64,000 bases of DNA from contig NZ_CP031310.1 in the NCBI RefSeq assembly GCF_004799665.1, positions 2,720,887-2,784,886 on the forward strand. Direction: 5' to 3'. Source of the DNA: Halapricum salinum. GTDB taxonomy: Archaea > Halobacteriota > Halobacteria > Halobacteriales > Haloarculaceae. The notes under the pieces are model-generated. The model searched no databases. It was not told the DNA's origin and worked only from the letters and a program-made list of their open reading frames with translations. The position numbers and the translations under genes were made by a program. Below are positions 27,224-63,086 of the stretch, piece by piece. Each line of letters begins with the position of its first letter. Position 1 is the first letter of the stretch.

Positions 27224-27317
27224 CGAGACACCTCGTTTCACTCGGTGTCTCGCTAGCTCGCGGTTCCTCCGTCACCGCTCGCCTTTTCCGAGACGCCTCG
27301 CTGCGCTCGGCGTCTCG
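27224..27317. repeat. Two related hairpins abutting the nuoCD2 stop codon
   Basis: Hairpin one pairs CGAGACACC (27224-27232) with GGTGTCTCG (27244-27252). Hairpin two pairs CGAGACGCC (27289-27297) with GGCGTCTCG (27309-27317). Both have 11-nt loops of the form tcgNNNcRctc. The single stem difference (A-T versus G-C) is changed on both arms, so pairing is kept. Hairpin two ends on the base next to the stop codon of the minus-strand nuoCD paralogue. Confidence 0.85.
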
Positions 27318-43246: not shown

Positions 43247-43498
43247 CTGTCAGTCTTCTTCCGGCTGGACTGGCTGCGCACGAACGCGCAGCCGTGCCGG
43301 CCGTCGATACAGTCAGTCCTCTCCCGGCTGGACTGCTCGCGCCAAAGAGCGCTCGCGAGCCGGCCGTCGATACAGTCAGTCCTCTCCCGGCTGGACTGCT
43401 CGCGCCAAAGAGCGCTCGCGAGTCGGCCGTCGATACAGTCAGTCCTCTCCCGGCTGGACTGCTCGCGCCAAAGAGCGCTCGCGAGTCGGCCGTCGATA
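43247..43498. repeat. Four 63-bp tandem repeats, each with a hairpin, behind the NUDIX gene
   Basis: Unit boundaries are 43247-43309 (diverged copy), 43310-43372, 43373-43435 and 43436-43498; the last three are nearly identical. Copy 1 carries the perfect hairpin GGCTGCGC-acgaac-GCGCAGCC (43272-43293). In copies 2-4 that position holds GCTCGCG...CGCGAGC (for copy 2, 43335-43360), a different sequence that still pairs. Read on the minus strand each unit includes a stop (P-G-E-D then TGA; P-E-E-D then TGA in copy 1). Units abut with no unique spacer. Confidence 0.92.
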
Positions 43499-62120: not shown

Positions 62121-62666
62121 ATGCGCGTTCGTGACTGGCAGGACATCCTCGAAGACGTGGTCGAGAACGACACCGACCCCGACCAGTGGCGCGCCGTCGG
62201 TGGGGACCGAAAGAACGGGATCGGCGAAGACCTCTATCTCGCACACCCCTCGACTGGTGTCTACCAGCTCAAGACCTACGCGAAGAACCCCTTCGAGGTT
62301 CAGGGCGTGGGGTCGCAGGTCGCCCGTCGAATCGACGACGAGATCGAACCGCTCTTTCCCGAGGAGGGATCGGGTCTGTTCGGCGTCCAGCAGCCCGTCG
62401 CAGACGAGAACGAGGCCGAGGAGAAAGCGAACAATTTGGAAGAAGTCGTCAAGGCCCACGCCGACGCACCCACGAGTCCGAAAGCGCTGTTCGAGGATAT
62501 CATGGACACGCTCGACAGCCCCGCCTACGGCCCCATGGACTACGAGATGGACGACCGACCCGAGGGGATGGACGACCTCACGAACACCTTCGAGGAAGCC
62601 GAGGAACTACTCGACGCCGAACTCGACGATCTGATCGACGAGGACGTGACCCGGGGCTTTCAGTAG
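62121..62666 (+). CDS. Haloarchaeal acidic protein, unknown
   Basis: The 181-residue protein is soluble and strongly acidic. It opens M-R-V-R-D-W-Q-D-I-L-E-D-V-V-E-N-D-T-D-P with W-R-A-V-G-G-D-R near 23-30, and P-M-D-Y-E-M-D-D near 137-144. I recall uncharacterised haloarchaeal homologues but no function. An upstream hairpin-free 131-bp region divides it from the divergent PAN gene. Its TAG stop lies in the loop of a perfect hairpin, the first of a long array. Confidence 0.7.
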   Translation: MRVRDWQDILEDVVENDTDPDQWRAVGGDRKNGIGEDLYLAHPSTGVYQLKTYAKNPFEVQGVGSQVARRIDDEIEPLFPEEGSGLFGVQQPVADENEAEEKANNLEEVVKAHADAPTSPKALFEDIMDTLDSPAYGPMDYEMDDRPEGMDDLTNTFEEAEELLDAELDDLIDEDVTRGFQ

Positions 62667-62901
62667 AAAGCCCTCGCGAACCGCTGGCGCGGTTCGCTCG
62701 CCCTTTTCATTTCCACGAAAGCCCTCGCAGCCGCATGGCTGCGGCTGCTCGCCCTTTTCATGTCCACCAGGCCCGCCTTGCGGGAGCCGCGCCGATCGGC
62801 GCGGCATCCGCGTGGGTTACGCCGACGCTTTCTATAGTCGGGCGCGGTTTGCGCCCGACGACTCCCCACTCCTCCCCGGCGGCCAGCATGAACGCTGGCC
62901 G
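62654..62901 (+). repeat. Array of seven hairpins, two with a common loop and flanks but different paired stems
   Basis: Hairpin 1 GGGCTTTC-agta-GAAAGCCC (62654-62673) contains the stop codon. Hairpins 2 and 3 share the flanks GAAAGCCCTC and TCGCCCTTTTCATnTCCAC and the loop tggc, but their 9-bp stems differ: GCGAACCGC/GCGGTTCGC (62676-62697) and GCAGCCGCA/TGCGGCTGC (62727-62748). The unit length is 51 bp. Further stems are CCCGC/GCGGG (62772-62784), the 20-bp palindrome GCCGCGCCGATCGGCGCGGC (62786-62805), GTCGGGCGC/GCGCCCGAC (62837-62859) and CGGCCAGC/GCTGGCCG (62880-62901). The following ~185 bp to 63086 show no gene. Confidence 0.92.
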
Positions 62902-63086
62902 CTGGCTTCCTCCGCGACCGCCACCGCCGCCGCTCCGCGTTTCGCTTCGTAGACAGACACGACGAATGCGCTACCGAGAGACTGCTGACACCACGCCGCC
63001 GGCCCGCATCTTCCCCGCTGTGGAGAAGTCGTATGCCGACCCCTTCTCACCACAAAACATATGACCTGAACAAAACACGAGTCGGT

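Follow-up and report, generated by a model that had tools for sequence, protein, structure and literature searches.

How can two adjacent hairpins share their flanks and loops to the letter and yet carry different stems, each of them perfectly paired? This question is raised by an array at 62655-62911 of the window, the 64,000-nucleotide stretch of the Halapricum salinum genome analyzed here. We suggest that the array belongs to a group of extragenic structured mosaic elements of Halobacteria, in which stems are exchanged as blocks and whose head unit, M1, acts at gene boundaries, and we give this reading a probability of about 0.6.

A composite hairpin array at the end of a gene

The initial annotation described two 51-bp units with the same flanks and TGGC loops around differing, self-complementary 9-bp stems, and we find them as described, in tandem, at 62666-62716 and 62717-62767. 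The units are 75% identical overall; their flanks and loops are identical, and the two stems differ while each remains perfect. The parts of the array are as follows.

62121..62666, plus strand: upstream gene, 181 aa, with stop codon TAG at 62664-62666, the last base of which is the first base of M1 unit 1
62655..62673, plus strand: alternative hairpin GGGCTTTC-AGTA-GAAAGCCC, read from the sequence and also present in the predicted fold of the locus
62666..62716, plus strand: M1 unit 1, 51 nt, 72.7 bits with covariance model R2
62717..62767, plus strand: M1 unit 2, 51 nt, flanks and loop as in unit 1, 70.6 bits with R2
62768..62811, plus strand: linker CCAGG and M2 hairpin GCGGGAGCCGCGCC-GATC-GGCGCGGCATCCGC (hairpin 62780-62811)
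62814..62861, plus strand: linker GGGTTACGCCGACGCTTTCT and M3 hairpin GTCGGGCGC-GGTTT-GCGCCCGAC (hairpin 62837-62859)
62870..62911, plus strand: linker TCCTCCCCGG and M4 hairpin GCGGCCAGC-ATGAAC-GCTGGCCGC (hairpin 62879-62902), then CTGGCTTCCT

Unit 1 is built from an outer stem GAAAG/CTTTTC, an internal loop CCCTC/TCGCC, and the stem GCGAACCGC/GCGGTTCGC (62676-62684 / 62689-62697) closed by the TGGC loop (62685-62688), with a spacer at its end; the corresponding stem of unit 2 is GCAGCCGCA/TGCGGCTGC (62727-62735 / 62740-62748). The product of the upstream gene had no Pfam or NCBIfam match. Five further hairpins had been reported around the units, and all are readable (62655-62673, 62771-62783, 62780-62811, 62837-62859 and 62879-62902), but the first two exclude their neighbours: the hairpin at 62655-62673 spans the stop codon of the upstream gene and can form only at the expense of the outer stem of unit 1, and CCCGC-CTT-GCGGG at 62771-62783 cannot coexist with the hairpin beside it.

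A haloarchaeal family of structured elements

M1 is a real family of structured extragenic elements, hitherto not described in the literature that we searched, where we found no account of it. A chance origin is ruled out by reversed-pattern controls and by covariation. In the loosest form of the genome-wide flank search that had been proposed as a check, the H. salinum genome gave 29 matches against nine in the reversed control, and a stricter form gave six against none; the flank-only pattern recovered four and then six exact units. One of the six matches (2557579-2557621) is without the TGGC hairpin and is probably unrelated to the family. The covariance model R2 finds nine strong copies in this 3.45-Mb genome. 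Across Halobacteriales it has matches in 97 of 394 genomes, spread over 42 of 95 genera and numbering from 1 to 24 per genome, so the family is present in at least 97 of these genomes. The two units of the window are thus not the only ones, and relatives do carry them.

We scanned about 85,000 species for TGGC between the exact flanks; those matches that paired came from haloarchaea. Viral contigs gave only two matches, in neither of which a paired unit was seen on checking. With Rfam covariance models the window had no match at the gathering score, and seven loci gave a single match elsewhere, at chance level.

The constant parts of M1 are the flanks GAAAG-CCCTC-G and C-TCGCC-CTTTTC and the loop TGGC, while the stem of 7-10 bp varies freely in sequence yet stays paired. 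In the 11 units that come from the genus, 99% of the stem cells are paired, and 40 cells have changed on both sides against 12±2.7 in shuffles. The 34 units drawn from many genera have 94.5% of cells paired and 141 changes on both sides, where shuffles give 47±5; covariation extends to their outer stem (GAAAG/CTTTT-C versus CTAAG/CTTAG). In the single-copy orthologous set of Natrialbaceae, 93.8% of cells are paired and 29 changes are double-sided against 11±2.3. The arms thus covary far above chance. As there is only one copy in Natrialbaceae, no paralogue in the genome can homogenise the stem, and pairing is therefore selected, or restored, independently of same-genome paralogues. The initial annotation had proposed strong selection for the fold, and the retention of pairing over 42 genera, including these strictly orthologous single-copy units, speaks for it.

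M1 is the head of a composite element of three to five hairpins with conserved linkers between them. It is followed by the linker ATGTCCNCCAGG and the M2 hairpin, in Halapricum then by the linker ACGCCRRCGCTTTCTGTAG with M3, and the element goes on with TCCTCCCCGG or CCTGCCCTTCCCCG and M4; additional hairpins may sit between the linkers. These downstream modules obey the same logic as M1, with fixed linkers and free stems, and a search with the M3 pattern gave no clear extra elements lacking M1. Such clusters of GC-rich intergenic hairpins, their number varying between relatives, recall the repetitive and double-hairpin elements of organelles. In the repetitive hairpin elements of sponges, stems are conserved and loops vary (PMC2800124), whereas M1 shows the reverse, a conserved loop and a variable stem.

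Several variants of this layout were seen. In one genome with facing M1 units (C6:41200-43600), the second unit holds about 140 nt of further hairpins within its stem, and the M1 'loop' is in this case able to hold whole hairpin arrays. Two loci carry a two-hairpin insert in the linker before M3, with ACGCCG on each side, which resembles an insertion with a short target duplication. A compact form, GAAGCCCTCG-7 bp-TTC/TCC-7 bp-CTCGCCCTTCATCCACCAGG, was seen in one genome, from a genus in which each genome has about 26-55 copies with exact flanks; it lies within GCACCGC-rich intergenic DNA and not at stop codons.

Stems and modules are replaced as blocks

In Halalkalicoccus, seven genomes gave 73 units with 57 stems, and 77 comparisons between orthologues. 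The counts of stem pairs that differ are bimodal, at 0-2 in 17 comparisons, 3 in one and 4-9 in 59, and the upper mode looks like unrelated stems. Upstream of the orthologous units the DNA has 80-99% identity, and differences among the 16 flank bases are very rare; at one locus with an upstream identity of 95.8%, five or six of nine stem pairs have been replaced. The same stem recurs at non-orthologous loci in 17 pairs, where column shuffles lead one to expect 0.19 and gave no more than 1 in any of 200 rounds. Four of the 17 fall inside one genome and are certain, while the others could include missed orthologues. One chimeric unit, GGAACGCAC-TGGC-GCGAATTTC, has arms from two different intact stems of the genus. 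In pairwise orthologous alignments, entire modules are exchanged between identical linkers.

The array in the window is itself such a mosaic. Unit 1 has 42 nt in common with the locus at 1272015 of the genome, the M2 part (62773-62833) matches 61 nt of the S19e/PDCD5 locus exactly, in inverted orientation, and the M3 part (62835-62861) is identical over 27 nt to the locus at 1272015 again. The M4 part is shared with the locus at 3195747 except for one loop base, the match to the reductase locus being 20+21 nt. Single-pair steps, GGCTGACCT to GGCTGACCC being one, and G.U intermediates account for at least some of the new stems.

Judged from these alignments, the replacement of stems and whole hairpin modules as blocks is well supported. 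Given the bimodal orthologous stems, their recurrence at unrelated loci, and the chimera, short-tract recombination between copies via the constant linkers is the simplest reading. A generating process that alters both arms at once had been anticipated in the initial annotation; that much stands, but the evidence favours block replacement over the hairpin-templated copying named there. Polyploidy and gene conversion are known in haloarchaea generally, and may be linked to M1 elements.

M1 sits at stop codons and before promoters

Positions were surveyed for 48 units in Halalkalicoccus and the H. salinum genome, 28 of which have a co-directional left gene. All but two of these 28 units (26/28) begin at most 20 nt from the end of that gene, with almost every start between -2 and +7 nt relative to its stop codon, and two units overlap the end of the called left gene; as genes were called with a simple composition filter, single cases may be wrong. 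Units beside a divergent left gene begin, in the clear cases, 38-42 nt before that gene's start codon; at PDCD5 in H. salinum the distance is 44 nt. Haloarchaeal mRNAs are mostly leaderless, so a unit 38-44 nt before the start codon falls at the upstream edge of the core promoter. The genes upstream of units include rpl10e, rps19e, PAN, an FAD reductase, an arginase-family gene, and aCPSF1/FttA. As M1 starts either at a stop codon or shortly before a core promoter, its placement suggests that it is most likely a gene-boundary element, serving termination or insulation.

The last of these genes has the strictest association. In Natrialbaceae, the sole M1 copy lies at the stop codon of the fttA/aCPSF1 gene (TIGR03675, 971 bits) in 15 of 15 genomes checked, and this placement is also found in Halalkalicoccus and one Haloarculaceae genome. 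Conserved hairpins lie downstream of the Natrialbaceae copy. The link between fttA and M1 is suggestive, and could reflect one ancestral event. Against the boundary reading stand the absence of M1 at the 3' end of fttA in Halapricum (three genomes with a readable 3' end), the orientation of promoter-side units against transcription, and the CTAAG/CTTAG class, which has no T tract, so that simple T-tract termination is not the common function.

Strand preference and other hairpin families in the window

Among 61 stems gathered by flanks alone, 31 are perfect, and the commonest defect is a tandem C.T/T.C in a CTCG/CTCG context, which on the complement is a tandem G.A in CGAG/CGAG. The conserved base of M1 carries this motif too (the complement reads GGGCGAG...CGAGGGC), and its loop on the complement is cGCCAg, a GNNA loop. 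The complement folds better in 30 of 33 units as RNA and in 29 of 33 as DNA. Stem intermediates comprise eight G.U and 12 A.C, a split that favours neither RNA nor DNA. Tandem G.A pairs and GNNA or GNA loops are stable in DNA and RNA alike, so the better fold of the complement does not settle the active molecule. The active form of M1 may be an RNA or a DNA hairpin, with the more stable fold predicted on the strand opposite to the one first quoted for these units.

Two other places in the window had been noted for similar stem changes, and both are real.

27224..27317, minus strand: two stem-CGAG-Y-GNA-R-CGAG-stem' hairpins that differ by one swapped stem pair
43247..43498, plus strand: second family, in tandem, CAGTC..CCGGCTGGACT - variable hairpin - CCGGCCGTCGATA, with stem swapping as in M1

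At 27224-27317, the single paired change is GAGACAC/GTGTCTC versus GAGACGC/GCGTCTC around CGAG-YGNAR-CGAG. Both hairpins belong to a set of five of this form on the minus strand of the window (26507, 27244, 27309, 51090, 51119), with GNA triloops throughout and variable outer stems. The paired-stem swap at 43247-43498 belongs to the second family (CCGGCTGGACT-hairpin-CCGGCC), which has 19 copies with many stems in the H. salinum genome, mostly in tandem pairs at about 60-bp spacing (at 292234, 314030, 570703, 1992628, 2668411, 2864675, 2913943, 3009589, 3059640 and 3411943). This family is nearly absent from congeners, and many of its copies have the CTCG clamp seen in M1.

Alternative explanations

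These features could also be those of a REP/REPIN-like non-autonomous mobile element, whose hairpins, as single-stranded DNA, would be moved by a Y1 transposase recognizing flanks and fold but not the stem. M1 elements resemble REP, BIME and REPIN sequences in being short extragenic palindromes beside genes, with many dispersed copies, and in forming mosaics of different palindromes with conserved linkers; REP families likewise have complementary stem variants and palindromes joined into mosaics (PMC3733652). The tandem copies, lineage-specific amplification to 24 or more, the one clearly better-folded strand with its GNNA-like and GNA loops, and the CTCG repeated on either side of each hairpin would all fit such an element. 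The differences are that M1 keeps its flanks and loop constant and its stem free, and that it is conserved at orthologous gene ends and was seen in Halobacteria only. The GTAG/CGTC foot tetranucleotide of REP is absent from the aligned M1 units, in which the foot is CCCTC-G/C-TCGCC, and GTAG precedes M3 in some copies only. A mobile element would also not be expected to keep its positions across genera and families (rpl10e, fttA, PDCD5), to persist as one copy throughout a whole family, or to sit flush at stop codons, and when insertion between CTCG repeats was tested, candidate empty sites were few (7 of 295 genomes), none shown to be orthologous. We therefore regard mobility of this kind as unlikely. 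Integron attC sites offer a related parallel, having conserved outer boxes, a variable terminal hairpin, a place directly after stop codons, and strand-specific folding. M1 shares conserved outer parts around a variable hairpin, the stop-codon position, and one strand that folds better, but its units are single, without cassettes, at what look like ordinary core genes in conserved order.

Hairpin-templated copying, or quasipalindrome correction, would preserve pairing without selection, as template switching copies one-arm mutations to the other arm; perfection of 31 of 61 distinct stems and the scarcity of single-arm intermediates agree with it. Yet such copying alters one or a few sites at once and does not replace 5-8 of 9 pairs beside DNA that is about 95% identical; it leaves identical stems at unrelated loci and the conserved flanks and loop unexplained, and the chimera and the tandem C.T/T.C defects remain uncorrected. 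As a full account it is very doubtful, and it may be a minor contributor at most, not needed for the block swaps. It is also improbable that the units are ordinary terminators, with a hairpin and T tract right after the stop codon, even though they lie at stop codons with CCCTTTTC after the hairpin, and the main M1 class shares its position downstream of genes and its hairpin plus TTTTC with haloarchaeal T-stretch-C and hairpin terminators. The Haloferax motif is a T stretch plus C, and 503 of its termination sites have a hairpin ahead of them (PMC7237163), which counts for this idea. Roughly one in three aligned units belongs to the CTAAG/CTTAG-like class, in which no T stretch follows the gene; M1 moreover heads a long conserved composite whose hairpins extend past the supposed terminator, occurs upstream of promoters as well, and is conserved in the sequence of its flanks and loop. 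A more specific proposal is that M1 is a signal for the FttA/aCPSF1 termination machinery, kept as a feedback element 3' of fttA and spread to dozens of genes in some lineages. With exchangeable stems, that machinery would have to read shape, loop and flanks rather than stem sequence. FttA binds U-rich RNA (PMC11616081), so direct recognition of the C-rich M1 is not expected, and we hold this proposal to be quite unlikely.

A conceptual model and its implications

We thus favour extragenic mosaic elements with block-exchanged stems and a role for M1 at gene boundaries. In such elements, the M1 flanks and loop are conserved in sequence while the stem need only pair, and more hairpins are joined on by conserved linkers. 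New stems would come from ordinary compensatory changes, and existing ones would be replaced via the identical linkers, as dispersed copies convert or recombine with each other, or with relatives, over short tracts. By marking gene boundaries, M1 may help 3'-end formation and termination or insulate neighbouring transcription units.

Overall, M1 elements are a natural example, and a clean one, of selection on structure that leaves the stem sequence free, and a single genome holds enough copies to tell apart selection, compensatory mutation and block exchange. Since M1 is strictly retained at fttA, a connection with transcription termination in archaea can be tested directly. Haloarchaeal intergenic DNA is apparently built in part of exchangeable hairpin modules, and this has a bearing on how polyploid archaea set gene boundaries, terminate transcription and undergo gene conversion.
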